Origin: a virus
Direction: 5' to 3' (one strand)
DNA: 24,143 nucleotides
IMG/VR virus record: IMGVR_UViG_3300042899_000043
Span: 1 to 24,143 of that record
The notes beneath the pieces are model-generated. The model was not told the origin of the DNA. It saw only the letters and a program-made list of their open reading frames with translations, and searched no databases. The position numbers were made by a program, and so were the translations under genes. Positions 6,571 to 22,697 of the stretch are shown here, one piece after another. The number at the start of each line of letters is the position of its first letter. Position 1 is the first letter of the stretch.

Positions 6571-6654
6571 TTGCTTTTCCTTTGTCCTAGCAGGTTTCCC
6601 TGCGCTTATAAGAACATCATACGCCTTTGTATAACAGTTGTCCAGTTAATTTAC
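6571..6654 (-). promoter_or_regulatory. Sigma70-type promoter plus structured 5' leader, copy 2
   Basis: TGGACA (6644-6639), a 17-nt spacer and TATGAT (6621-6616) form a near-consensus promoter. The leader carries a hairpin, GCAGG-GAAA-CCTGC (6603-6590), then TAGGACAAAGGA and the ATG at 6570. The same arrangement, with most bases identical, precedes the plus-strand gene at 10350. Confidence 0.88.
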
Positions 6655-7542
6655 AAACTTTTTTTTACCTAGTTCTGCAAGGCTTTTGCGCTCTAATAAG
6701 GCTTTTCGGATGCCGTCACGCAAAGAAATCTGAGGAACAAAGTATTGATGCGACAGGTGCGGATCACCTACGCGAAAGAGAACGCCTGTCGGCTTTTCGA
6801 TTATGTGATTAAAGGTCGGAGCATAACCAACTTCATCGCAAACCATTTTCGCTAACTCATTAAATGAAGTTGCGAATCCTGAACACAAATTAAATGTTCC
6901 AACGTATCCCGTCTGCACGTGCCATAAAACCGCTTGCACAATGTCATCTATGTGAATAAAGTCGCGTACCTGTTCGCCGTCACCCCAAATATCAAATGGA
7001 TCAGACTTAGACAATGCGCGATCTATAAAAGATGGGAACGGATAATCAGAATCTTGATCTGATCCATAACCGCTAAACGGTCTGAACACAAATAATTTTG
7101 AATCAGTGATGAACTGCGCTAAGTATTCGCCTGTTAGTTTTGCCCATCCATAAGTTAGATCAGGATTTGCAACTGCATAAAGATTAAGATCGTGTTCTGC
7201 CAATCTAAGTAGTCGATGTTTATTTTGCAAGTCAATCGGATACGCAGCGGAACTAGAAAAATACACAACATTTTTTGGCTTAGTTCTTTCGACCCAGTTA
7301 AAAAATTCGGCATCAATAGATAGATCAGTTGCAACACTTAACGGTTCATTCTCGATCGTTGCCCTGCCACCGACAATTGCTGCGAGATGGATTACTAGAT
7401 CGAACTGTTCTGTGTTGATCTTAAAAAAGTCGCGACAGTCATTGCCATCTTTTAAGTCGATTCCAGTAATGTCGCTATCGGGTAACGCCTTTACAAAGTT
7501 ACGGCCAACGAATCCTTTATGACCTGTAATTAAAATTTTCAT
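6646..7542 (-). CDS. NAD-dependent sugar epimerase/dehydratase (extended SDR)
   Basis: The 298-aa protein has the Rossmann motif ITGHKGFVG near residues 5-13, HLAA at 52-55, FSSSAAYP at 95-102, the catalytic Y131-x3-K135, and RDFIHIDD at 193-200. These are the marks of nucleotide-sugar epimerases and dehydratases of the extended SDR family, which act in the cytoplasm on UDP-, GDP- or dTDP-sugars; the substrate is not predictable here. I start it at the ATG at 7542, which overlaps the preceding glycosyltransferase stop as ATGA; the GTG six bases earlier is less likely. It is the last gene of the four-gene glycosylation cluster and probably supplies its sugar donor (inference). Confidence 0.88.
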   Translation of the reverse strand: MKILITGHKGFVGRNFVKALPDSDITGIDLKDGNDCRDFFKINTEQFDLVIHLAAIVGGRATIENEPLSVATDLSIDAEFFNWVERTKPKNVVYFSSSAAYPIDLQNKHRLLRLAEHDLNLYAVANPDLTYGWAKLTGEYLAQFITDSKLFVFRPFSGYGSDQDSDYPFPSFIDRALSKSDPFDIWGDGEQVRDFIHIDDIVQAVLWHVQTGYVGTFNLCSGFATSFNELAKMVCDEVGYAPTFNHIIEKPTGVLFRVGDPHLSHQYFVPQISLRDGIRKALLERKSLAELGKKKFVN

Positions 7543-8216
7543 AACCACGCCTTTACGTTTGCCACATCGGTTGCAAATTCGGTGGCTAGGTATTCCGCAA
7601 AAATAGCCTGATCCCCGTTATGCATTTCTGAATTATTTACGGCTGCATATCTTTCATCGTGTTCCGCTTTGCCGTTCGTGTAATGCAGGTGTTCAATAAT
7701 TACATCTGGTAAATAGTTTGCGTTGCCTAAAGCCTGACCCATCGCCAGCCAATAATTATCTAGAAACAAATGCTTTAGGTTAGGTGGTGACATAAATCCT
7801 GTTGCCCTGATTATCTTGCTAGACATAACTACTGCTGTCGGTAAATTCTCGCCTTGTAATAAATCGTTGCCATATGAAATTCCAACATCGCTTCCTATCG
7901 CTTCTGCAAGTTTCGTATCCCATCCACCTGTGCGCGGTAGGTGATCATCGCCCATAAAACAGATGTAATCGTAATCAGGCGAAAACCATAATGCCCAATG
8001 ATTAAGTGTGCCGTTCATTCCCATACGATCAGCAACAACAACTTTAACGTTATCTAGTCCAGCGGTTTTATCCACTAACCCTTGATAAGTTTTTAGATCA
8101 TCATTATCAATTGCAAACACAACTTCTGTAAAGTCTGCTGTTGCGTTGATCGCTTCGAACAATCTGATTGCGTTATCGTTACGGCCACGTGTCGGGATTA
8201 TTGTAAGCATTCTCAT
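7539..8216 (-). CDS. GT-A fold glycosyltransferase
   Basis: The 225-aa product begins MRMLTIIPTRGR, which is typical of GT-A enzymes, then AIDNDD near residues 36-40 and YICFMGDDHLPR around 84-95. GDDH stands where the metal-binding DxD motif is expected. The start chosen is the ATG at 8216, overlapping the previous stop as ATGA; an earlier ATG at 8234 would extend into that gene. The enzyme would transfer a sugar from a nucleotide donor; the acceptor is unknown. It lies inside a coupled block with two GT-B-type enzymes and an epimerase, between capsid and connector genes, so a virion protein acceptor is plausible. Confidence 0.82.
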   Translation of the reverse strand: MRMLTIIPTRGRNDNAIRLFEAINATADFTEVVFAIDNDDLKTYQGLVDKTAGLDNVKVVVADRMGMNGTLNHWALWFSPDYDYICFMGDDHLPRTGGWDTKLAEAIGSDVGISYGNDLLQGENLPTAVVMSSKIIRATGFMSPPNLKHLFLDNYWLAMGQALGNANYLPDVIIEHLHYTNGKAEHDERYAAVNNSEMHNGDQAIFAEYLATEFATDVANVKAWL

Positions 8217-9007
8217 TGTTGTACCAGTCTCCAAAATGTGTTACCTGCCTTGTCAATCATTTCTCGTAAAGCATCTGCATCATTCCAATCTTGAACAGAT
8301 GTAATTCCTACGTTGTCGTTTGTGTGTATTTTGCAACCTGACAGCACCGCTTCCATTACGGCGCGACATTCCGATTCGAATGCTAAAGGTAAATGCACAA
8401 ACCATTCGCATCTAGCCATCGCATCTAAAACTACGGAACGATCAACATCACTTAAATCTAGAAAAGGCAAACCATTCTCTAATGACCAAGCGTGTGCTTT
8501 CAATCTACCTTTTAGTGGATGATTCCGAGCAGCCCACAACGCCATTGATTTCTTATCGAAATGATCGTGACATTTAGTTGTGTCGAAGTAAGAAAGAACC
8601 TGTGCAGTTTTACGTGGTTTTGCCCAAGATAATTCACGGCGCATATGCGCAGGCGTATGAGTAACGAATAAGCGAGAGCCACGAATCAAAGCGTTCAGCC
8701 CTGCCCGCGGTGTTTGTAAATGATGAACGAATACGAACGGATCATATTCACTTAATCTAAACAGTTGCTGATCGGTGAATAAGTCTGTTCCTGTAACAAC
8801 GATCGAATCGAATTTGTGTATGTCGTGTGTATCGAAATCCTGTGGCGTGACGATCTGTATATCAAAATCTAAGGGTGCTTGTTGTTGGTATTCGTAATCT
8901 GACATTTCAGCACCACCCGCGAACTTTCCGCTGAATAGCCATTCTTGCCCCTCAGAGCAAATCTCAGGGGTTTTTACAACGTGGTGGGTGTACCAACCTA
9001 TGTTCAC
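8213..9007 (-). CDS. GT-B-like glycosyltransferase
   Basis: The 264-aa protein begins with GTG at 9007 (NIGWYTHHVV), overlapping the upstream stop as GTGA. An ATG at 9061 would overlap that gene by 58 nt in another frame and is disfavoured. KFAGGAEMSDYEY near residues 28-40 resembles the N-terminal substrate loop of GT-B enzymes. Near the C-terminus, FESECRAVMEAVLSG carries an E-x7-E pattern like the GT4 nucleotide-sugar site. It is shorter than usual GT4 enzymes (about 350-400 aa), so it may be a reduced or partner-dependent enzyme. A plus-strand terminator-like hairpin lies inside the gene at 8948-8975. Confidence 0.75.
   Translation of the reverse strand: MNIGWYTHHVVKTPEICSEGQEWLFSGKFAGGAEMSDYEYQQQAPLDFDIQIVTPQDFDTHDIHKFDSIVVTGTDLFTDQQLFRLSEYDPFVFVHHLQTPRAGLNALIRGSRLFVTHTPAHMRRELSWAKPRKTAQVLSYFDTTKCHDHFDKKSMALWAARNHPLKGRLKAHAWSLENGLPFLDLSDVDRSVVLDAMARCEWFVHLPLAFESECRAVMEAVLSGCKIHTNDNVGITSVQDWNDADALREMIDKAGNTFWRLVQQ
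8948..8975 (+). terminator. Terminator-like hairpin antisense to the GT-B-like gene
   Basis: On the plus strand, CCCCTCAGA and TCTCAGGGG fold around GCAAA with a single C-C mismatch, immediately followed by TTTTT. It sits within a minus-strand coding sequence, so it could stop antisense transcripts or be coincidental. It is only a weak candidate because of the mismatch. Confidence 0.4.
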
Positions 9008-10191
9008 GCTGTTGGCCGTTCTACGGAACGCTGTGCAAGAATTTCCAATGTTGGTTTCCAATGCTTCTCATAGACAAAATCCGCGCTGTAACTTTTAGCA
9101 AATTCAATTGCTTTCTCAGATCGTTCCTGACCACGTTGATATGCTGCTTCTAAAGATTCAACGATTTTCGGAACTGACGGCATATGAAACCACGCTGTCT
9201 GCGGAGCATCCCAAAGCGGTTGCCCATCTACTAACCAGCCATCACCTAGAAGTTCTGTTGATGCCGCGAACTCTGAAACGATTACTGGTGTACCGCAGGC
9301 CTGTGCTTCGATCGTAGGAATTCCAAAACCCTCGCCATAAGAAGTCGCAAGCAATACATCCATCGCTGTATAAATAGTCGCAAGTGTTTGCTGTTCGATT
9401 CCTGTGCGGTAAACGTAAGGATCAATGAATTTGTATTGATGTTCTTTTAATCCAACTGCGGTTAGTAAATCAGTTAATCGAATACCGCCTAGTGCGCCTA
9501 TTGAATCTGTGTGCAAATAAAGGATCGCATCATCGTGCTTTTGTGCAAACATCGAGAACGCCAAAATGTTTTCACCAAATGCTTTTCGATTAGGGCTAAC
9601 ACCCTTATTCGCTGCATTCATTCCGACAATAAATCTGTCGTTAGAAATTCCAATGTAATCTCTGCCTGTAATTCCTTTATGTCTTTTCATTGGCTTAAAC
9701 ACAGATTCAATTCCGTGCGGAACATATAAAGATTCGATGCCAACATTTTCTAACATCGCTTGTCCGTACTGACTCATTGCAATCGGCGTTACGAAATCCT
9801 GCCGACACCACGCAGCAACTTGTGGCGGTGCTGGAACGTGATCGATTGGAACCCAACTTGCAACATTCCAATCTGACCATCGCTTACCTTTGAAAACCCA
9901 CACATCATAAAGTGTAAAAAGAATATGCGGTTGCTTAGGATCGATCATTGTCCAATCGTGCATATGCGCGGGAACAACATCATTCGAATAGAGATCAGCA
10001 CCGCGTTGGTAAATCGGTATGCCGTTCCAGTCTGTGTTGCTTCCCTCTAATCCGTAGTTTGAAAAAATTGCAACATCGTGTCCCTGTTCTTTCATTCGTT
10101 GCGTAACTTGCGCAGTTTGCGTTCCGTATCCAGTTGCAGCCCACGGCGCGTTGCTGTTCCAGCCGATTCTTAATGAGGATTTATTTGACAC
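9004..10191 (-). CDS. GT4-family (GT-B) glycosyltransferase
   Basis: The 395-aa protein has RIGWNSNAPWAATGYGTQT at its N-terminus, the glycine-rich acceptor-side loop of GT-B enzymes. Near residues 287-295, EGFGIPTIE gives the E-x7-E signature of GT4 enzymes, followed by ACGTPVIVSE. The length is normal for the family. The start is GTG at 10191, supported by AGGGAG about 6 nt upstream. It is the first gene of a four-gene cluster lying between the capsid terminator and the accessory unit at 6570. It probably initiates or extends a glycan on a virion component (inference). No convincing promoter was identified in the 158-bp divergent intergenic upstream, which is shared with the plus-strand unit. 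Confidence 0.88.
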   Translation of the reverse strand: MSNKSSLRIGWNSNAPWAATGYGTQTAQVTQRMKEQGHDVAIFSNYGLEGSNTDWNGIPIYQRGADLYSNDVVPAHMHDWTMIDPKQPHILFTLYDVWVFKGKRWSDWNVASWVPIDHVPAPPQVAAWCRQDFVTPIAMSQYGQAMLENVGIESLYVPHGIESVFKPMKRHKGITGRDYIGISNDRFIVGMNAANKGVSPNRKAFGENILAFSMFAQKHDDAILYLHTDSIGALGGIRLTDLLTAVGLKEHQYKFIDPYVYRTGIEQQTLATIYTAMDVLLATSYGEGFGIPTIEAQACGTPVIVSEFAASTELLGDGWLVDGQPLWDAPQTAWFHMPSVPKIVESLEAAYQRGQERSEKAIEFAKSYSADFVYEKHWKPTLEILAQRSVERPTA

Positions 10192-12314: not shown

Positions 12315-12491
12315 TTAACGTGTTTCAGTTACATCCGCAATTCGTGTTTCTTTAACAGGCTGAAAAGATTTAACCTCAGAATGTTCAGCAACAATTGCTT
12401 CACAAATAATGTCAGCAAAATCTACGAACACGCCAGACTGCGGATTACCAAGCACGGATAGATATGTTTTTTTTACATCTTCAAAATTCAT
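12315..12491 (-). CDS. Small hypothetical protein between protease and capsid
   Basis: This 58-aa gene begins MNFEDVKKTYLSVLGNPQSG and ends ADVTETR. Its ATG overlaps the protease stop as TAATG, the same coupling used at many other junctions here, and a terminator lies just downstream. The N-terminal half is amphipathic (VFVDFADIICEAIV) and looks like a helix; the rest is polar. The position between protease and capsid suggests a head-assembly helper, but this is inference. No family was recognised. Confidence 0.7.
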   Translation of the reverse strand: MNFEDVKKTYLSVLGNPQSGVFVDFADIICEAIVAEHSEVKSFQPVKETRIADVTETR

Positions 12492-14575
12492 TAGAAAACC
12501 TTTGCCATCAAATCAAGTTGCTTGCGCTTTAGTTCTAGCAATTCAAGATTGCTTGGTTGTTCGGCGCGTAGTTTAGAAACCACCTCAGAAATTAAATCTG
12601 CGTGTTTTGGTTCTAAAGTTTCGCCTGCTTCTAGTCGAGTGATCGCATCGCTTAACGCATCAACATCTACGGCTGTGCGTGTTGCAAGAATGTCTAGAGA
12701 TCGAACAGATGCAGTTGTTGCTTGATACGCGGGAAATCCTGTAACAATAGAAACCTCGTGTAAACGAATCTGATGCAGTTCGCGTGTTGCTCCATCCTCT
12801 GACCATCGATCGCCACGCGGGGGAACGCTAAAACCAAACGACATTGAATTCACATCGCCACGTTGCATTAGTACCGATAGATCACGGCCAGCACTTGTAT
12901 CTGGCAGATCTGCTTCCGCTAGTAATCCGCGTGAATCCTCGCTGAGTCTTAGAGTTCCTGCGCGACTCGAACCAAGAACAACATCTGTGTTGTGATTCAT
13001 AAACAATTTAATTTCGTTGCGCGACTTTAACGAACGCTGAAATGCACCACCCTTGATAATTTCTGTAAATGGCAAAGGTTCTGATGGTGAATCGAATACG
13101 GCTGCGTATCCAGTGAAACTCATTCCATCGCTTGATGCTTCGCCGTTCCGAACATCAAACTCAACTGTGTTCACACGACGTTCTACTGTTGTTGTCATTT
13201 GTTGCCTTTCATCGTTGTTCAAGTTTAGTGCAATAGTTTTCCATTTTTCGTTTTGTTCCGCGTTCCGATCTTGCTGTTCATTTCTAATTCGTTCGACAAC
13301 GCGTTCTGCATAAGCCATAGTGCGCCGTGCTTGTTCTTTCGTTGCTCCCGATCCCCACAAGAAATGTGCCACGACACCAGCACTAGGATACTTTTCATTA
13401 CTAGGGCTGGCAGCGGGAGCATCTAAGTCAGGCATATGCCGCGCAATCCACGCTGCAATTCGAATCCACTTATCATCGGAAACTTGTCCATCAGCCATCA
13501 GTCTTGCTTCCCGAACAGTCTTATCAGTTAAGCCATCGCCCGCTTTTCCATCGGCATAAAATTCTAAACCACGACGAGCAGCAGCGCGCATAAAACTTGG
13601 CGCATCTTGATTGATTGCTCGATCCTCTAAACTGCGCGAACTTTTTGGATGTCCTACTGGTAACAAATCATTGTCTTGCACATAACTCGATTTTTCAGGT
13701 TTACCATTACGCAACAAATACAAGTAAGAATTAACTCTTGCAATCGCCCATTGTCCGCGTGTCATTCCTGGTCTATGAGAAACCGAAAACGCACCAGCAC
13801 CTCTACGATAAACAGCCTTGACTTGTCCAAGTGATGCGCGTGTCCAATCTGGTCGATTGTCTTTTGACATTTCATCGTTGTGTTCTTTAACTTTATTTTT
13901 TAATGCAGTTGTTGCTGCTTCATCAAATTTAATTCCACCACCAGATCCGCTTGCACTTCCCTCTGGATTTTCATCACTACCTTTAATCTGATCTTTCTTT
14001 GGTGCGGGTGCGCGTTCCTCATCGTCATCGTTTTCATCAGACGGAACATTTGGAATATCAGATACATCTAATGCCGTAATTCCTAGTTCTTTAAATGCTG
14101 CGCGGTTATCTGGATTGTTATCGATCGCAAGAATAACGTTGTATTCCTTGAGCAACATTTCTGCGGTTGCTTTCTTAAACTCAACAGAATTAACTGAACT
14201 GTTTTCTTTCATAAACAAACGATCATAGTCAATACCTAATGAATCTAATTCGGCAACAGTTTCATCTCGATCCGCAACGACACGCGCAGTAACAATAAAA
14301 ATTTCTGTATCTGACATATCATCTAAATAGTTGTAAGTCTTTTCAATTAGAATGCCGTCATTAGAAATAAGTGTGCCATCAATATCTACGATTACAGCAA
14401 GTGGTCCAGACTCGATCCGCTCACCGCCAACTTCTATGTCCTCTGAAATTGAAACGGCAACCATCTGATCTATCGCATCCTGTTTAGTAGCGTGACAACC
14501 GATGACCTCGCCATCATCTTTTATAGTTGCCCAACCTGAACAGTCAGGTGATTTATCTGTGATGAAGTACGGCAT
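12491..14575 (-). CDS. Fusion protein: HAD-like phosphatase domain + conserved phage domains + HK97 prohead protease
   Basis: From the ATG at 14575 (TAATG overlap with the decoration gene) the product is 694 aa; an upstream ATG at 14599 is less likely. Residues 1-45 (KSPDCSGWATIK, GEVIGCHATK) form a small domain seen in actinophage head proteins. Residues 58-170 are HAD-like: DIDGTLI with D64/D66, VTAR at 95-98 and IDNNPD at 151-156. A Ser/Gly linker leads to a domain at about 215-310 (YRRGAGAFSVSHRPGMTRG, DNDLLPVGHP) and another at about 328-430 (LEFYADGKAGDGL, WIRIAAWIARHMPDL). The HK97 prohead protease (peptidase U35) follows from Met460, with H528 in FMNHNT and Ser in DVNSMSFGF (577/579). 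Usual proteases are only about 200-240 aa. An internal start could yield the protease alone. Confidence 0.85.
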   Translation of the reverse strand: MPYFITDKSPDCSGWATIKDDGEVIGCHATKQDAIDQMVAVSISEDIEVGGERIESGPLAVIVDIDGTLISNDGILIEKTYNYLDDMSDTEIFIVTARVVADRDETVAELDSLGIDYDRLFMKENSSVNSVEFKKATAEMLLKEYNVILAIDNNPDNRAAFKELGITALDVSDIPNVPSDENDDDEERAPAPKKDQIKGSDENPEGSASGSGGGIKFDEAATTALKNKVKEHNDEMSKDNRPDWTRASLGQVKAVYRRGAGAFSVSHRPGMTRGQWAIARVNSYLYLLRNGKPEKSSYVQDNDLLPVGHPKSSRSLEDRAINQDAPSFMRAAARRGLEFYADGKAGDGLTDKTVREARLMADGQVSDDKWIRIAAWIARHMPDLDAPAASPSNEKYPSAGVVAHFLWGSGATKEQARRTMAYAERVVERIRNEQQDRNAEQNEKWKTIALNLNNDERQQMTTTVERRVNTVEFDVRNGEASSDGMSFTGYAAVFDSPSEPLPFTEIIKGGAFQRSLKSRNEIKLFMNHNTDVVLGSSRAGTLRLSEDSRGLLAEADLPDTSAGRDLSVLMQRGDVNSMSFGFSVPPRGDRWSEDGATRELHQIRLHEVSIVTGFPAYQATTASVRSLDILATRTAVDVDALSDAITRLEAGETLEPKHADLISEVVSKLRAEQPSNLELLELKRKQLDLMAKVF
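13198..13210 (-). promoter_or_regulatory. Internal ribosome-binding site and ATG for a stand-alone protease
   Basis: GAAAGG (13210-13205) lies 6 nt upstream of an in-frame ATG at 13198 that opens MTTTVERRVNTVEF exactly at the protease domain boundary. Translation from here would give a 235-aa protein (13198-12491), the size of ordinary HK97-type proteases. Whether it is used is not visible from sequence. Confidence 0.5.
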
Positions 14576-14841
14576 TAGTTCATCGTCTGCCTTAACCAAG
14601 AGATCGTGTGAGAACCTGATGCGCTAATGGCATAAAGAGATTCGCCTGGATTAAGTTCGAGTTCGATGCTGTCAAGTTTTAACAGTTGCAAACCTGTTGA
14701 AGTTGTGACGGAACTCCCGCCTAAAAAAATCGAGTTTGTATTGTCGTTATTGTGAACGTGTAATTTTGATGGGTTCGCTGAAGTTCCATCGACTTGAACT
14801 GCGCTAGTTCCAACAGTCACCTGACCTGATGTAATTGCCAT
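14575..14841 (-). CDS. Small beta-rich virion protein (head decoration/fiber-like)
   Basis: The 88-aa product is almost entirely beta-strand in character: VTVGTSAVQVDG, SIFLGGSSVTTSTG, SIELELNPGESLYAIS and HTISWLRQ. Such proteins occur between portal and protease in actinophages and fit capsid surface or decoration proteins, though some copies may belong to the tail. It starts at a TAATG junction with the portal stop and ends in a TAATG with the protease fusion. There is no catalytic motif. Confidence 0.65.
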   Translation of the reverse strand: MAITSGQVTVGTSAVQVDGTSANPSKLHVHNNDNTNSIFLGGSSVTTSTGLQLLKLDSIELELNPGESLYAISASGSHTISWLRQTMN

Positions 14842-16346: not shown

Positions 16347-17867
16347 CTAAAAACTAAAGAACTGTGGAACAACAGGTTCGTCACGTGAAACAGTTGCCCT
16401 ATCAAATCCAATGATACTAGCAACGGCCGCATCTATCTTGCGTGGTGATCCGCGGTGTTCTTTTACAATGCGTGGTCCGATTCGATCAGTCTTAACAACA
16501 GCATTAGATAAATGTCTAGTAAGCAACGGATTACCATCGTGTGTAAGTTTTCCCGAAACAACCGCATCATAAAATTTTGCACACGCTGGAACCATTCGCG
16601 CTGGTGATGTTGATGGCCACTCAACGATTGGGAAACCCGCTTCATCTAAAACTTGCATTGTTCGTTGCCACCTAAAAGGATCACAGGCAATTTCTTTTAC
16701 GTTATGTGTGCCACAAAATTCAATGATTGTATTTTCAACATCTAGGATATCTACGCGCCAATCATCTTCATCATCTGGTTGTTTTTCCCAAGCCTTAACC
16801 ATAAAGACATAGGGCTGTTCCTCGCAAGTAACACCAATGATTACGGAAGCATCACCAGAAAAAGAACCATCGAAACCTAGTATGACTGGTGTATCAGAAT
16901 CGATAACACGCTCAATCGCTAGTGGTTCCCACGATCCGTTAGGTAACCAAGACAGTTGCGAACTTACCCATTGATTGCATCGCTTAGTTCGAAACTCTGC
17001 TTCTGGTGTACGTTTTACCATCGCAGCAAAATCTGCTGGATCGTTTAGATCACCAAAGGCAGGGTTCGCTGCTTTCCAAGTTTTTTCAATTGTGTGATCC
17101 GCTTCATTCTGTGCTTCCCACCACGCCATAAAAAAAGTTGGATCATCAACTTCTTTCGCAGCAACTCTCTTACCGTACTGATACAAATTGTATGCAGTTG
17201 AATCTTGTCCAGTCGAATCCGATTTTACTCCAGCAGTTGTAATTGCAATTGCCATAGGCTCACGGCGCGCACCCATACCAAGCAACATCGTGTCCCAAAG
17301 TTCACGATTAGGTGCTGCGTGTAGTTCGTCAAAAATAACCATCGTTGGTGATAAACCCTCTTTGGTAAATGCTTCACTTGATAGAACGCGATAGACAGAA
17401 CCAGTTGCGGGAACTTCGATTGCATCGCGGTACACGTTACACAGTTCGGATAGTTCGGGTTCGGCTTCAATCATTTTCTTAGCATCGCCAAAAACAATTC
17501 GCGCTTGTTCTTTATCGGCTGCACACGAATAAACTTCACCACCGTGCGCACCCATAATCAAGGACCATAAACCGATGCCAGAACCTAACGCACTTTTGCC
17601 ATTCTTTCTTGCCATTCCGATCAGAGCAGTTCTGTGCTTAAACTTTCCCGCAGTATTCACGGCAAACAAATTATTTAATAGTTCAGATTGCCACGGGCGC
17701 ATTTGCATTGGATCGCCCGAATAACCTGCAACTGTTTCCTTAGTCTGAATTGCAAATGTATTTATAAAATCAGTTACTTCAAAACCACGAGATTTTTTCA
17801 AGGCAATTTTATTGACAGGCGTTAATAGAGTTGGTGGCCAAGATTCAATTTTAACTTTGGCTGGCAC
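16347..17867 (-). CDS. terL: Terminase large subunit (HK97/Terminase_1 type)
   Basis: The 506-aa motor-nuclease has the ATPase motif ARKNGKS (residues 86-92, a Walker A variant), Walker B VIFDE (177-181) and a following ITTAG coupling-like motif. The RNase H-like nuclease acidic residues are D333 in GFDGSFSGD, D396 in EIACDP and D479 in KIDAAVA. Length and order match HK97-type large terminases that translocate and cut concatemeric DNA. The gene overlaps the small subunit by 17 nt. No intein or insertion is present. Confidence 0.95.
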   Translation of the reverse strand: MPAKVKIESWPPTLLTPVNKIALKKSRGFEVTDFINTFAIQTKETVAGYSGDPMQMRPWQSELLNNLFAVNTAGKFKHRTALIGMARKNGKSALGSGIGLWSLIMGAHGGEVYSCAADKEQARIVFGDAKKMIEAEPELSELCNVYRDAIEVPATGSVYRVLSSEAFTKEGLSPTMVIFDELHAAPNRELWDTMLLGMGARREPMAIAITTAGVKSDSTGQDSTAYNLYQYGKRVAAKEVDDPTFFMAWWEAQNEADHTIEKTWKAANPAFGDLNDPADFAAMVKRTPEAEFRTKRCNQWVSSQLSWLPNGSWEPLAIERVIDSDTPVILGFDGSFSGDASVIIGVTCEEQPYVFMVKAWEKQPDDEDDWRVDILDVENTIIEFCGTHNVKEIACDPFRWQRTMQVLDEAGFPIVEWPSTSPARMVPACAKFYDAVVSGKLTHDGNPLLTRHLSNAVVKTDRIGPRIVKEHRGSPRKIDAAVASIIGFDRATVSRDEPVVPQFFSF

Positions 17868-18300
17868 GTGATTTCAATTCCTCAAGTTTTGATTGTCGCT
17901 TAACTTCCGCAACACCTAGTCGTGTTCGATCCGTTGGCGTGAATCCTAGTAAGGAAAGATTTGCAACAAGTTGTCGATCTAATTCACGCAATGCTTTTCT
18001 TTCATCTGGTCTGTTGCTGCTCATAACTTGAATGCGCAAATTCCAACGTTCATCTAGTAACTCACAAGTCATAAGTAATAAATCAATGTCGGTTGTAGGG
18101 CTAATCCAACTTTGCCCCATTCCCCAAATACGATCCCAGAGTTGTTGTCCAGCAGAAAGTAGTGGTCTGTGAGGTTCGGGAATGCTGTAAGCAGATGGCA
18201 GTAAAACCATCTCACCTTGATTCGGTAAAGGTCGCTTGCCAGGATTGCCGATCATTCTTTTTTGTTCAGTTGGCTTTGGTGGTCTGCCACGTGTAGCCAT
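17851..18300 (-). CDS. terS: Terminase small subunit, P27 family
   Basis: The 149-aa protein begins with RGRPPKP (residues 4-10) and GNPGKRPLP (18-26), both hallmarks of P27-type small terminases, followed by a helical part (AGQQLWDRIWGMG, DIDLLLMTCELLDERW, ELDRQLVANLSLLGFTP). It recognises packaging initiation DNA. GAGGG lies about 11 nt before the ATG. It directly precedes the large subunit with overlap, and follows the epimerase gene after 19 nt. Confidence 0.92.
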   Translation of the reverse strand: MATRGRPPKPTEQKRMIGNPGKRPLPNQGEMVLLPSAYSIPEPHRPLLSAGQQLWDRIWGMGQSWISPTTDIDLLLMTCELLDERWNLRIQVMSSNRPDERKALRELDRQLVANLSLLGFTPTDRTRLGVAEVKRQSKLEELKSRASQS

Positions 18301-18319: not shown

Positions 18320-19339
18320 TTATTTATTTGACGAAAACCAAGTAATGCCATCGTTCTCTCTAAACCAATCGACAGTTTCACTTATTCCATCTTGCAAAGA
18401 CTTAAAACTTTGATGATCTATTCCTATTGCTGTAAGCGTAGAAACATCTGCACTAACTACTGTACCAAGTTCGCGCATAACTCTACGAACATCAATGCTT
18501 CGCAAGTAAGGATTAACATCAAGAACACTATGAACAACAGTCATTAACTTTTCTTGCGTATCTATCGCACCGCCAAATGGTTCGCCTGCGCGCATCGGTA
18601 CAGTTTCGATTGTGCCGCCATCAACATTTGCAATAACTTCATTAGCAACTGTAAGAACATTTGTTGGTATCTTGTTGCCAACATCGATCGGATGATCTGG
18701 AACATTGCCTTTGCTTGCTTCCTCTAACGCGGTAACAAATACGCGGGCAACATCGCCCACCCAAACCGAATCGCTAATTTGTGTGCCGTCACCATAGACA
18801 CGTAACGGTTCACCGCTTAACGCAGATGTTACGAATGACGGAACAATCTTTCTAACCTTTGATGAACCCTTAGGTGCTGGCGCACTTTGTCGTGGTCCAT
18901 ACGCATTCATTGGTCGAACGGAAGTCACACGCAGACCTCGATCCATTCGGTACATATCAACAAATCTTTCGCTTGCTGATTTTGTAATGCAGTAAGTTCC
19001 CCGCGCAATGTTTGCGTTACCAACGGCTGCAAACACAACGGGTAAGTCGTAACGTGTCGCTGCTTCAAAAACATTAAGAGTTCCGATGATGTTTGTTTCT
19101 GCTGCTGGTAGCGGAGCATCGATTGTTTCAACTGTTCCTAATACGGCTGCGAGATGAATGATGCCATCAACGTGTGCTGCAAGTTCATTAACGATCGTAC
19201 TGTCCCGTACATCACCAAGCATTCCATTTTCTGCTCGCCCGCGATGATCGAGAATAAGCGGTGTGTGTCCACGCTTTTTTAATTCCTCGCAAACATACGA
19301 ACCAATAAAACCTGAACCACCAGTTACACCAATTTTCAT
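18320..19339 (-). CDS. NAD-dependent epimerase/dehydratase (extended SDR)
   Basis: The 339-aa protein has GVTGGSGFIG at residues 4-13, DVRD, HLAAV near 62-66, Y116-x3-K120, RPMNAYGPRQ and VYGDGTQISDSVWVGDVA. This is the core of UDP-sugar epimerases and dehydratases. The usual S/T-rich strand end before the active-site Tyr (SSS or STT) is replaced by AAVGNAN at 104-110, so the third catalytic residue looks absent or relocated. It starts 2 nt after the TAGT-like glycosyltransferase and may make its donor sugar (inference). AAGGAAATAG precedes the ATG. Confidence 0.88.
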   Translation of the reverse strand: MKIGVTGGSGFIGSYVCEELKKRGHTPLILDHRGRAENGMLGDVRDSTIVNELAAHVDGIIHLAAVLGTVETIDAPLPAAETNIIGTLNVFEAATRYDLPVVFAAVGNANIARGTYCITKSASERFVDMYRMDRGLRVTSVRPMNAYGPRQSAPAPKGSSKVRKIVPSFVTSALSGEPLRVYGDGTQISDSVWVGDVARVFVTALEEASKGNVPDHPIDVGNKIPTNVLTVANEVIANVDGGTIETVPMRAGEPFGGAIDTQEKLMTVVHSVLDVNPYLRSIDVRRVMRELGTVVSADVSTLTAIGIDHQSFKSLQDGISETVDWFRENDGITWFSSNK

Positions 19340-19341
19340 TT

Positions 19342-20199
19342 CTATTTCCTTTTGTATTTTTCATTGATTATTTTAGGGACAGCGTTATCCCATTTGATTG
19401 AATGATGAAAACGTCTATCAGTTCTGCCCATCGTTCCGATACTTACGCAAGATGGTGCCATCATTACTGTATAAAAACTTTTTGTGTATGTGCCAGAATC
19501 TTTGTAAAATTCAGACATTCCACCAGATGCTTGTTGTGTCTGCACCTGATTTAATTGCAAAGCCATTGTTGTTAAGAATAGTGAACCTCGCTGTCCATAG
19601 CAAACGTAAGAATTAACATCATCATTAACTCTGCCAATAAAATTTATTGGTGTATCTGTGCGACAAAAAAATGAATTCATTGCTTTACGCAGTAAACCGT
19701 TTTTTATTTTGCCATCTACTCCACCCATATGATCGCCACCTTGCGACATAGCGACTGTTAGAGCATTTGTGCTTTCTAGTAGATCGAGCATTGCATTGAC
19801 TATCTTGTCAAAGTTAGTTACTTGTTTTGAACAAATTTTGTCACCCTTAACAAACCTGTGCAAAAAAACCGTGTAGTCATCATCGAGTTGTAGGAAATAA
19901 TCAAGATTTAATTCTTTAGCAATTTCGAAGCAAGCATTTCTAGCATAAACAATTGCGCGATGATCATCACCCGAATAAGCATCATCAAAAGTTTTTGCAA
20001 TTGCTTTCTTGTCAAACATAAACACGTTTTCTTTTCCGAACTTGTCTATGTAAGTTTGTCCCTGCGTATCCTCATTATCAATTACGAAATAAGTTTTGCC
20101 AGAATAGTTTGCTTTCTTTAATGACTCTAAAGTAATTACATTGTCTGGTCTGCCGTGTGTCAAAATAAAAATAGCAAAATTCTTTTTATCTCTAGCCAT
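19342..20199 (-). CDS. TET-associated glycosyltransferase (TAGT)-like GT-A enzyme
   Basis: The 285-aa protein has ILTHGRPDNVITLESLKKA at residues 12-30, VIDNEDTQGQTYI at 39-51, VYARNACFEIAKELNLDYF at 84-102 and LQLDDDYT at 104-110. It continues with MSQGGDHMGG, MNSFFCRTDTPINFIGRVND and SGGMSEFYKDSGTYTKSF. From memory of the family this is the TAGT group, proposed to glycosylate hydroxylated DNA bases made by TET/JBP oxygenases in phages. It overlaps the ParB-like gene by 8 nt, a linkage expected for such loci. No oxygenase is visible in this window, so acceptor identity is inference; a protein acceptor is the alternative. Confidence 0.8.
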   Translation of the reverse strand: MARDKKNFAIFILTHGRPDNVITLESLKKANYSGKTYFVIDNEDTQGQTYIDKFGKENVFMFDKKAIAKTFDDAYSGDDHRAIVYARNACFEIAKELNLDYFLQLDDDYTVFLHRFVKGDKICSKQVTNFDKIVNAMLDLLESTNALTVAMSQGGDHMGGVDGKIKNGLLRKAMNSFFCRTDTPINFIGRVNDDVNSYVCYGQRGSLFLTTMALQLNQVQTQQASGGMSEFYKDSGTYTKSFYTVMMAPSCVSIGTMGRTDRRFHHSIKWDNAVPKIINEKYKRK

Positions 20200-20953
20200 C
20201 TTGTTTTTCTAACAGTTCGATTGTTTCCATAAATTTCACATAACCATTTTTAATTGCATCCGCCATATCAATAATTACTAGGGCTGACTGCTCCATTAAT
20301 TCTTGTGTGTCCTTATCGCAATGCGCGTAGTATTCAGCAATCAATTTATAGTTAAAAACTAAATGCCTGTATGTTCCTAAGATTAAAAATTGTTCAACAT
20401 TTTTATCCGACAAATTCTTGGCATAAATTTCCTTTTGCAAAAACTTTGTTTTGCTTTCGTTCACTAAGGATTCACTTGTTGGTTTCTCGCCAACTATTTC
20501 GTACTGCGGAATGTTTACTGATTGTGTGTAAAGATTCTCGTGATCATCGGGATTACCTAACGGTGGTTGCAGTTCAACAAATCCAAACTCTTGTAGTTCC
20601 CAACCGACAGCATCAAGTTCTAACATCTGTTCTTTAAGAACTTCCGCATTCCATTCCGCAAGTTCAGCAGTTCGATTATCGGCAAGTGCGTAGGCTTTGA
20701 TCTGATCCCAACTCCAACCAATCGGTGTTCGACTTATTGCTATTTCAGTCCAACCTAATTTCTGTGCTGCTTCAAGAGTTCCGTTACCAGCAACAACGAT
20801 GTTGTCGGGCGTAACAATAATCGGTTTACGCTGCCCGAATAATTTAAGCGATCCCGCAATTGCATCTAGATTTTTTGCATCGTGTTTTCTGGCGTTCGTA
20901 GGATCGAACTTCAATAAATCAATTTTTACATTTTCAATTCGCAGATCAGTCAT
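20192..20953 (-). CDS. ParB-like nuclease-domain protein with conserved phage C-terminal domain
   Basis: The 253-aa protein starts at ATG 20953; a GTG at 21124 in the same frame would extend through the upstream hairpin and promoter and is rejected. The N-terminal ParB/sulfiredoxin-like domain shows GQRKPIIV (40-47), VVAGNGTLEAAQKLGW (53-68) and YALADNRTAELAEW (88-101). The C-terminal half carries VNIPQYEIVGEKP (147-159), YRHLVFNYKLIAEYYAH and SALVIIDMADAIKNGYV, a conserved region I associate with phage ParB proteins encoded near DNA-modification and terminase genes. It is probably DNA-binding or nicking and linked to base modification or packaging. It overlaps the TAGT-like gene by 8 nt. Confidence 0.85.
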   Translation of the reverse strand: MTDLRIENVKIDLLKFDPTNARKHDAKNLDAIAGSLKLFGQRKPIIVTPDNIVVAGNGTLEAAQKLGWTEIAISRTPIGWSWDQIKAYALADNRTAELAEWNAEVLKEQMLELDAVGWELQEFGFVELQPPLGNPDDHENLYTQSVNIPQYEIVGEKPTSESLVNESKTKFLQKEIYAKNLSDKNVEQFLILGTYRHLVFNYKLIAEYYAHCDKDTQELMEQSALVIIDMADAIKNGYVKFMETIELLEKQDG

Positions 20954-20960
20954 AAATCGG

Positions 20961-20988
20961 ATGTTACAGGAAAAACGTGGAAAATCAA
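20961..20988 (-). promoter_or_regulatory. Leaderless-type promoter of the ParB-like gene
   Basis: On the minus strand TTGATT (20988-20983), a 16-nt spacer and TAACAT (20966-20961) are followed by exactly 7 nt and then the ATG at 20953. No Shine-Dalgarno sequence lies between. The expected transcription start coincides with the A of the ATG, as in actinobacterial leaderless genes. Confidence 0.6.
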
Positions 20989-21107
20989 CAACTGTTCTAA
21001 AAAATCCTTTTAATTCGGGGTTTTTTGGAAAACTGGGAATTTTGCGACAATGCCTACATAGATGGATTCTGGGTATCGCTTCCGTATGCATACAAGAAAA
21101 TGCCCTA

Positions 21108-21129
21108 CCCCCGATAAATACCACGGGGG
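21108..21129 (-). terminator. GC-rich hairpin after the HNH gene
   Basis: CCCCCG (21108-21113) pairs with CGGGGG (21124-21129) around a 10-nt loop, starting 2 nt after the HNH stop. On the minus strand it is followed by TAGGGCATTTTC, a weak T tract. Termination is likely but the imperfect tail leaves room for another role such as a packaging signal. Confidence 0.55.
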
Positions 21130-21131
21130 AT

Positions 21132-21449
21132 CTAAGGATTGATTACTGGTTTGTTACCTCTAGCAGCGTTACAGGCTGCGTGTGCGGGCATTAGAACACT
21201 TCCCTTAACTCCAGCAAGCACATGATCTGCCTGTATCTGTGATCGATCTGTAAAGGCTTCCCCGCATAACCAACAATGAGTTGCGAATTCTTTTATCAGT
21301 CTTGCTTGTTTCCGATGACTAGCATCATAAAGAGTGCGCTGTGCTTTTCTCGCATTAACTTTAGAATCGATTACTGCTTGATGATCCGCGCATCTTGATC
21401 CAAGTCTTGTAAGTTTTCCGCAGTCCAAGCACGGTCGCTGAAATGCCAT
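21132..21449 (-). CDS. HNH endonuclease-like protein
   Basis: The 105-aa protein has two Cys pairs (CLDC at 7-10, CWLC at 59-62), ADH at 74-76, and the final MPAHAACNAARGN at 87-99, which together make a zinc-supported HNH fold. It lacks the usual long DNA-binding extension. Small HNH proteins encoded near the terminase are often required for packaging cleavage in HK97-type phages; here it lies upstream of the ParB-like, glycosyltransferase and epimerase genes rather than next to the terminase. It starts 2 nt after the Ntn-hydrolase stop. A homing-endonuclease role is less likely because of size. Confidence 0.85.
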   Translation of the reverse strand: MAFQRPCLDCGKLTRLGSRCADHQAVIDSKVNARKAQRTLYDASHRKQARLIKEFATHCWLCGEAFTDRSQIQADHVLAGVKGSVLMPAHAACNAARGNKPVINP

Positions 21450-21451
21450 CG

Positions 21452-22003
21452 TTAGTTCTTAAAAACATTCCCGCTTGGATGTGAAATCCATTTGTCGATA
21501 GTTCCGCGTGTGTTCGGATCGTGCATTGTTGCAACTTCCATTGCTCTTAGCACAGATAGGTCGTGATTCTTATTCCAGTCAGGATGGTATTGACTATTGG
21601 CTAAAACTCCTAATGCTAATTCAGCACCAGAACCAATTGCCCAATAAGGTTTAGCCGATAACACACTCAGGTTCTCGCTTACTAAGAATGATTGCGCGTG
21701 TGTTACGAGCAAGCACTCAGCATCCATTTCACTATCTTTAATCACATCATCTATTAAAGGAATCACATTGACAACAATCCACTTCATCCAATCGCCAGAC
21801 TTAATAACATCTTGCGGTGGTGTCGGGTATTCGATTAGATACTGCAACTGATCGCAGACTCTAGCGTTACCGGCAACACCGATCAACCACGAATCTTGCT
21901 GCACTATCTTTTGCATATCGGGATGTATTAGATCGCTTGTTATTCCTCGATCAGCAACTAATGTTGTTGAGTTATTACCGCTTGTTGTAATTATCGTGGT
22001 CAT
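21452..22003 (-). CDS. Proteasome-beta/HslV-like Ntn hydrolase
   Basis: The 183-aa protein begins MTTIITTSGNNSTTLVADRG, so after removal of Met the N-terminus is Thr1 with Asp17 in VADRG and a Lys at about position 31 (MQKI), the Thr-Asp-Lys set of proteasome and HslV active sites. WLIGVAGNARVCDQL and YWAIGSGAELALGVL match the proteasome fold's conserved Gly-rich strands. The ATG at 22003 is preferred; an upstream TTG would hide the catalytic Thr. The gene begins 2 nt after the methyltransferase stop. No ATPase partner such as HslU is present here. Its substrate is unknown. Confidence 0.82.
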   Translation of the reverse strand: MTTIITTSGNNSTTLVADRGITSDLIHPDMQKIVQQDSWLIGVAGNARVCDQLQYLIEYPTPPQDVIKSGDWMKWIVVNVIPLIDDVIKDSEMDAECLLVTHAQSFLVSENLSVLSAKPYWAIGSGAELALGVLANSQYHPDWNKNHDLSVLRAMEVATMHDPNTRGTIDKWISHPSGNVFKN

Positions 22004-22005
22004 AG

Positions 22006-22653
22006 TTATTCGCAAATGCTGACTAAGTGATTTATTAATTCCTTTGGGATTTCACTGCGGTTAAGGTAGTCGCGCTTATTCGCTTCACCGTGCACGCCGT
22101 GCCTGTGATCAACATTTGTTGATCTACAAATTGGACTGAATGCTGGCCAATCGTGATTTGTCCAAATGTCCGTTGGCTTTTTTATGTAAAGGTTTTCATA
22201 GCCTTTGGCATTACCTTTGCGACCATAAGAACAATAAGAAATAGTGTGCCGCATTCGACCTTGAACAAAAGGCATATGTCGCATTCTTCCTCTTGGATTT
22301 TCTACAAAATAATAGCGTGATCCTGCTTCGATTAGTTCATCAATAAGTTTCCACATAACAATGTTTATTTCATCATCTTGTTTTGCTAATGCAGTTTTTG
22401 CAACTAAGCCATCGGATAATGTTCGGTGTCTGTGTGTGGCTATCGAATAAGTTGTGCACTGTGGACTTGCCCAAATAACATCAGGTAATCCATCACACAA
22501 TTCAATTACTTTCGCAACTGTTAATGTTTTTATGTCTATATGTAATTCTGCTTCAACTTTTTCTGACCAATCAACTCTATAAGCCTGATGGCCACGTTCT
22601 TTAAATGTTGCACTTATCGAACCTTGCCCACTAAATAATTCTAAAAGTTTCAT
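22006..22653 (-). CDS. Compact C5-cytosine DNA methyltransferase-like protein
   Basis: The 215-aa protein from the ATG at 22653 opens with motif I (ELFSGQGS, 5-12). WASPQCTTYS (61-70) stands in for the motif IV PPC loop with Gln for the second Pro and C66 as the likely nucleophile. VENPRG (117-122) stands for motif VI ENV, and QGRMR (131-135) for the QxRxR motif VIII. KPTDIWTN (159-166) is typical of a phage family annotated as DNA cytosine methyltransferase. Classical enzymes exceed 300 aa, so the target-recognition domain is reduced. AGGA lies about 9 nt upstream of this ATG; a longer start at 22680 is possible. The target sequence is unknown. Confidence 0.8.
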   Translation of the reverse strand: MKLLELFSGQGSISATFKERGHQAYRVDWSEKVEAELHIDIKTLTVAKVIELCDGLPDVIWASPQCTTYSIATHRHRTLSDGLVAKTALAKQDDEINIVMWKLIDELIEAGSRYYFVENPRGRMRHMPFVQGRMRHTISYCSYGRKGNAKGYENLYIKKPTDIWTNHDWPAFSPICRSTNVDHRHGVHGEANKRDYLNRSEIPKELINHLVSICE

Positions 22654-22697
22654 TTGAAAAATCCTGGTTCTCCACGGCATCAGAATAGCCTATCTGT

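Follow-up and report, generated by a model that had tools for sequence, protein, structure and literature searches.

A candidate DNA glycosylation cassette formed by a TAGT glycosyltransferase and its genomic partner domain upstream of phage terminase genes

A TET-associated glycosyltransferase (TAGT) and a domain lacking a Pfam model, here called TPD (TAGT-partner domain), constitute an obligate genomic pair, frequently located close upstream of the terminase genes in phages. As judged from gene neighborhoods, the best reading is that this cassette is exchanged at the packaging locus with TET and other DNA-modifying enzymes. We give about even chances to a more specific interpretation, that is, a TET-independent glycosylation cassette guided by ParB and TPD and probably acting on DNA.

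The window, i.e., the whole analyzed stretch of 24,143 bp (IMG/VR record G000), is an incomplete genome of a tailed phage with nearly all genes on the minus strand, in the order SSB, HNH, methyltransferase (MTase)-like, HslV-like, HNH, ParB-like, TAGT, epimerase, small (TerS) and large (TerL) terminase subunits, portal, prohead protease, major capsid protein, the second glycosyltransferase cluster and tail genes. The region 19342–22653 had been described as a possible DNA hypermodification locus; its genes and coordinates are confirmed, all of them being open frames on the minus strand, with an 8-nt overlap between the ParB-like gene and TAGT and a 2-nt gap between TAGT and the epimerase.

The glycosyltransferase and its two-domain partner

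The gene at 19342–20199 (minus strand) belongs to the TAGT family, as originally proposed: it matches PF20691 over the whole length with 126 bits (the curated cut-off being 27.5), and also PHROG 842. In the alignment of 113 sequences, residues R17, D44, R87, D107, D108, K172, D194, Q222, H265, and H266 are invariant. Structure prediction, suggested earlier as a check, yields a confident AlphaFold2 (AF2) model of the GT-A fold (pLDDT 93.9), with the acidic metal motif DDD at 106–108, including the invariant D107 and D108, and the C-terminal HH pair at 265–266. The nearest solved folds are GnT-I (VIA Z 14.2) and GalNAc-T2 (Z 13.8), and the near matches include many protein glycosyltransferases (GalNAc-Ts, SunS, ColGalT1); a shared GT-A fold does not identify the acceptor of TAGT.

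The ParB-like gene (20192–20953, minus strand) most likely starts at ATG 20953, and not at 21124, the end of the listed open frame. It encodes two domains, the N-terminal ParB/Srx fold (ParB-N, 20540–20953) and, in the region where ParBs have parS-binding or clamp domains, the separate helical TPD of about 110 residues (20195–20539). Hence, the original description of the gene as ParB-like holds for its N-terminal part, while the TAGT-specific domain had been missed. The ParB Pfam score is 17.7, under the cut-off of 26.3; still, the AF2 model matches CTP-type ParB with Z 15.6 across 124 residues, and profile matches to Noc/ParB chains are observed among PDB sequences. Thus the protein shares the N-terminal fold with the ParB CTPase family (ParB, Noc, KorB), but is predicted from its sequence and model to carry TPD in place of the C-terminal part.

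In the ParB/TPD alignment the N-terminal part is variable and the C-terminal part is strongly conserved, residues Y143, Y152, R197, A207, D230, and G238 of TPD being invariant to within rounding (numbered from codon 20954–20956, one ahead of the likely start). The model is confident for ParB-N and for the helical TPD core, and conserved residues near 143–150 and 234–238 fall in low-confidence stretches, which may become ordered on TAGT. Stand-alone TPDs have no match in the Pfam profile search. The PDB sequence search with the ParB-TPD profile gives matches mainly on ParB-N and none for TPD, and the PDB fold search with the whole model retrieves only ParB-N matches. Hence TPD is a domain without a description in Pfam, although TPD or the TET-less TAGTs may have been noted previously (Iyer et al., 2013; Burke et al., 2021).

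Genomic pairing, distribution, and accessory genes

Two hundred and six genes have been identified with the TPD-only profile, and TAGT is adjacent in all 205 cases with room for it, directly downstream of TPD in 203 and directly upstream in two (L060, L061). The same adjacency is seen in the loci gathered by the ParB/TPD search itself, represented by the best 80 of 593, so that distant TPDs are unsampled. Approximately 34–38 TPD genes have no detectable ParB-N; these are mostly stand-alone proteins of 130–150 aa, as in Vibrio phage pv27, a few being longer or cut by contig ends. The correlation with TAGT distances is higher for TPD (r 0.38) than for ParB-N (r 0.11), with a bootstrap difference of 0.17–0.33. 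Natural TPD-TAGT fusions are absent among about 200 loci.

The TAGT family splits into TPD-linked and TET-linked branches. In the tree of 96 proteins, 74 TPD-linked TAGTs (tandem copies included) are separated with support 98/90 from 22 others, that is, 21 TET-linked TAGTs and the T6 enzyme, whose placement is unsure as it forms a long branch; the window TAGT is nested within the TPD-linked part (99/98). Accordingly, the larger sampled branch now has a named obligate partner, for which Pfam holds no model. The beta-glucosyl-HMC-alpha-glucosyltransferase of T2 and T6 is similar to the window TAGT in belonging to PF20691 and transferring sugar to phage DNA (PMC13216743, PMC13390438), but depends on the dCMP-hydroxymethylase route and adds a second glucose onto glucosylated HMC in DNA (PMC13216743). 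The T6 enzyme, on its long branch at the TET-linked side, is not recognized by the profile of the window clade even at E 10.

In close relatives (L002–L007) the order ParB–TAGT–epimerase–TerS–TerL is kept at 88–99% identity, and in L008–L012 ParB–TAGT alone is retained. The pair is also found close upstream of the terminase in Nocardia phage NTR1, Lactobacillus phages c5 and jlb1, archaeal HHTV-2, E. coli Rac-like prophages and Porphyromonas phages, thus spanning phages of Bacteroidota, Bacillota, Pseudomonadota, Actinomycetota, and archaea. By alignment search, bacterial genomes yielded 35 prophage loci, and viral sequences no fewer than 544 loci, 80 of which were retained. The terminase, encoded in the window at 17851–18300 (TerS, PF25673) and 16347–17867 (TerL, PF03354 and PF20441; both on the minus strand), adjoins TAGT in 64 out of 99 copies with room, and some TAGT copies in large phages lie away from it. 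Matches to the DNA of the pair are present in 1572 out of 5426 complete E. coli genomes, and in 885, about a sixth, they cover at least 80% of the pair, which makes it directly testable in E. coli. A sugar modification with such a spread could have consequences for studies of restriction and CRISPR and for phage therapy. In K-12, only the N-terminal part of the ParB-TPD gene survives, as ynaK in Rac (L217:9378-9641), and TAGT has been lost.

Several accessory genes accompany the pair. The NAD-dependent nucleotide-sugar epimerase/dehydratase (18320–19339, minus strand; PF01370, 7e-40), which begins 2 nt after TAGT, is optional: its homologues are found in 21 out of 199 TAGT loci, the closest ones directly downstream of TAGT. 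A radical SAM gene is located near TAGT in 16 out of 199 loci, in gut Bacillota prophages and phages (L030:10857-11816 and 15 others), directly downstream in the sampled cluster. In four out of 199 loci a P-loop (kinase-like) domain, for which neither a clear Pfam match nor a PDB sequence match is found, is fused to the N-terminus of TAGT (L033:6498-7901, L160:6699-8090, L167:7441-8913, and L172:6738-8159). Tandem TAGTs occur in several loci, e.g., in a 115-kb phage contig, where a single TPD precedes five TAGT genes (L125:5416-10840). The accessory genes and tandem copies suggest that further sugar tailoring may take place.

The packaging slot and searches for hydroxylating and methylating enzymes

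ParB-N is not restricted to TPD; it exchanges partners in the slot upstream of the terminase. In Mycobacterium phage Nigel, ParB-N is followed by TET, a P-loop kinase, and the terminase, and ParB-N lies upstream of TET in all 18 Nigel-type loci. Of the 80 TET loci akin to L095, 70 have room for the upstream neighbor, and ParB-N is directly upstream in 69 of them; in 22, a TAGT-like gene lies in between. Both TET samples are narrow, stemming from two queries, and among their 98 loci TPD is present only in L095, which has the TPD-TAGT pair plus a separate ParB-N, a second PF20691 protein, TET, TerS, and TerL. Hence, the TET-linked cassettes (Coopervirus; L095 and relatives) resemble that of the window in having ParB-N upstream of the modification enzyme followed by the terminase, and, in the L095 type, TAGT, but differ by the presence of TET and, in 97 out of 98 loci, the absence of TPD.

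Also upstream of the terminase, ParB-N is fused to DUF4417 (Streptococcus phage Javan28) or to PAPS reductase (Methanoculleus virus L4768); these proteins share the N-terminal domain and the position of the window gene, while their C-termini are other enzymes or domains instead of TPD. Such a fusion of ParB-N and PAPS reductase goes under the annotation "DNA modification methylase" in an archaeal virus (L206:1242-2486). Moreover, the window ParB-N aligns with the N-terminal portion of a DNA-MTase PHROG (2e-29). ParB-N thus recurs in packaging-side DNA-modification genes, TPD-TAGT being one of several exchangeable partners. Since TET, DUF4417, and PAPS-reductase-type domains are found in the same slot, and given the ParB-MTase PHROG match, the window locus is probably involved in DNA modification, in line with the original prediction.

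The mechanism proposed initially, with cytosine methylated, oxidized by TET and then glycosylated, is not supported for this locus. No TET/JBP oxygenase is seen within the window, as had been noted, and, as the record is incomplete, with the rest of the phage genome outside it, the absence of TET is not demonstrable from the window alone. However, TET (PF12851) is absent in 61 record searches covering about 60 related records (11 and 50, two being shared), including complete phages c5, jlb1, HHTV-2, and NTR1. As a positive control, TETs of Mycobacterium phages Nigel and Zemanar, taken because a scan of 396 genomes from one phylum found none, were detected by the same search at about 5e-8, whereas Xp15 was not detected. 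TET is present in one TAGT locus, L095, out of 199. The thymidylate-synthase-like hydroxymethylase (PF00303) is absent in 40 relatives and matched in one record (Vibrio phage pv27) of a set of 11, overall in one out of 46.

The MTase-like gene (22006–22680, minus strand; also delimited as 22006–22653) matches PHROG 757, "DNA methyltransferase" (6e-24), and has no Pfam family and no PDB sequence match. Its segments LELFSGQGS, SPQC, and ENP, seen by eye, were compared with C5-MTase motifs I, IV (PC), and VI (ENV), respectively. We reject this gene as a member of the cassette despite its proximity, as no homologue is found in 199 TAGT loci, 134 of which include 2.5 kb or more of upstream sequence, and its homologues in L317 and L318 are not accompanied by TAGT. 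Thus, the sampled loci link TPD-TAGT to neither TET, nor the thymidylate-synthase-like enzyme, nor the MTase, and in the tree the window TAGT groups apart from the TET-linked ones. Of the two alternatives offered originally, we prefer the one in which TAGT acts on a different base or acceptor, and an oxygenase outside the window is less favored, given its absence from the relatives searched.

Possible acceptors and mechanism

Under the favored interpretation, TPD, here fused to ParB-N, would bind TAGT in a physical complex, which the ParB domain would bring onto phage DNA around the time of packaging; this targeting step is weakened by the stand-alone TPDs, which show that ParB-N is dispensable. 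The many protein glycosyltransferases among the nearest folds and the large-phage copies located away from the terminase likewise speak against this interpretation. TAGT would then transfer a sugar, possibly altered by the product of the neighboring epimerase gene, to phage DNA, and DNA glycosylated in this way may block restriction or other DNA-targeting defenses. As no base-hydroxylating enzyme accompanies the cassette, the acceptor would not be TET-oxidized 5mC, and might be a canonical base or some other DNA group. It is possible, if rather doubtful, that TPD-TAGT directly glycosylates unmodified DNA, at a canonical base or at some other group, without prior hydroxylation; to our knowledge, this has been described in no phage, and we know of no hydroxyl acceptor on unmodified DNA for the PF20691 family.

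A protein acceptor is an unlikely alternative. The target could be TPD itself, by analogy with glycosyltransferase–acceptor pairs, or the terminase or a virion protein, and then adjacency to the terminase would reflect late expression only. The peptide and protein glycosyltransferases among the top fold matches (SunS, ppGalNAc-T, ColGalT1), invariant or near-invariant Tyr and Ser in TPD, and the failure to find a maker of the DNA hydroxyl in the related records searched all agree with it; on the other hand, a shared GT-A fold reveals no acceptor, this slot repeatedly combines ParB-N with DNA-modifying enzymes, and the characterized PF20691 members work on DNA (PMC13216743). We consider it improbable that TAGT modifies a base hydroxylated by an unrecognized enzyme, be it a divergent oxygenase, a radical SAM protein, or one supplied by the host: the radical SAM genes and P-loop fusions described above could point in this direction, but most loci, including that of the 31.8-kb phage c5, have no such genes beside the pair. 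Very improbable, in our opinion, is glycosylation of 5mC produced by the MTase and oxidized by a TET encoded in that part of the genome which is absent from the record. The MTase-like gene is indeed just 2 kb upstream in an incomplete record, and one relative, L095, has TET on the same contig, but TETs of L095 and related phages adjoin their own ParB-N and, where present, their own TAGT, the slot in the window has no TET, and neither the TET searches nor the neighborhoods of the MTase homologues agree with such a chain.

Several other features of the window were observed. An HslV/proteasome-like peptidase is encoded at 21452–22015 (phrog_1040, 3e-19), flanked by the HNH and MTase genes. The region 12491–14599 is a single frame of 702 aa combining the prohead protease, DUF5824, and a HAD-phosphatase-like region, and a part of this fusion is missing from close relatives. 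The second sugar cluster (6646–10191), between the capsid and tail genes, comprises genes for an epimerase, a GT2-like protein that matches phrog_14945 as well as DNA-MTase PHROG 2675, a protein with no match, and a GT4, and is possibly involved in virion glycosylation.
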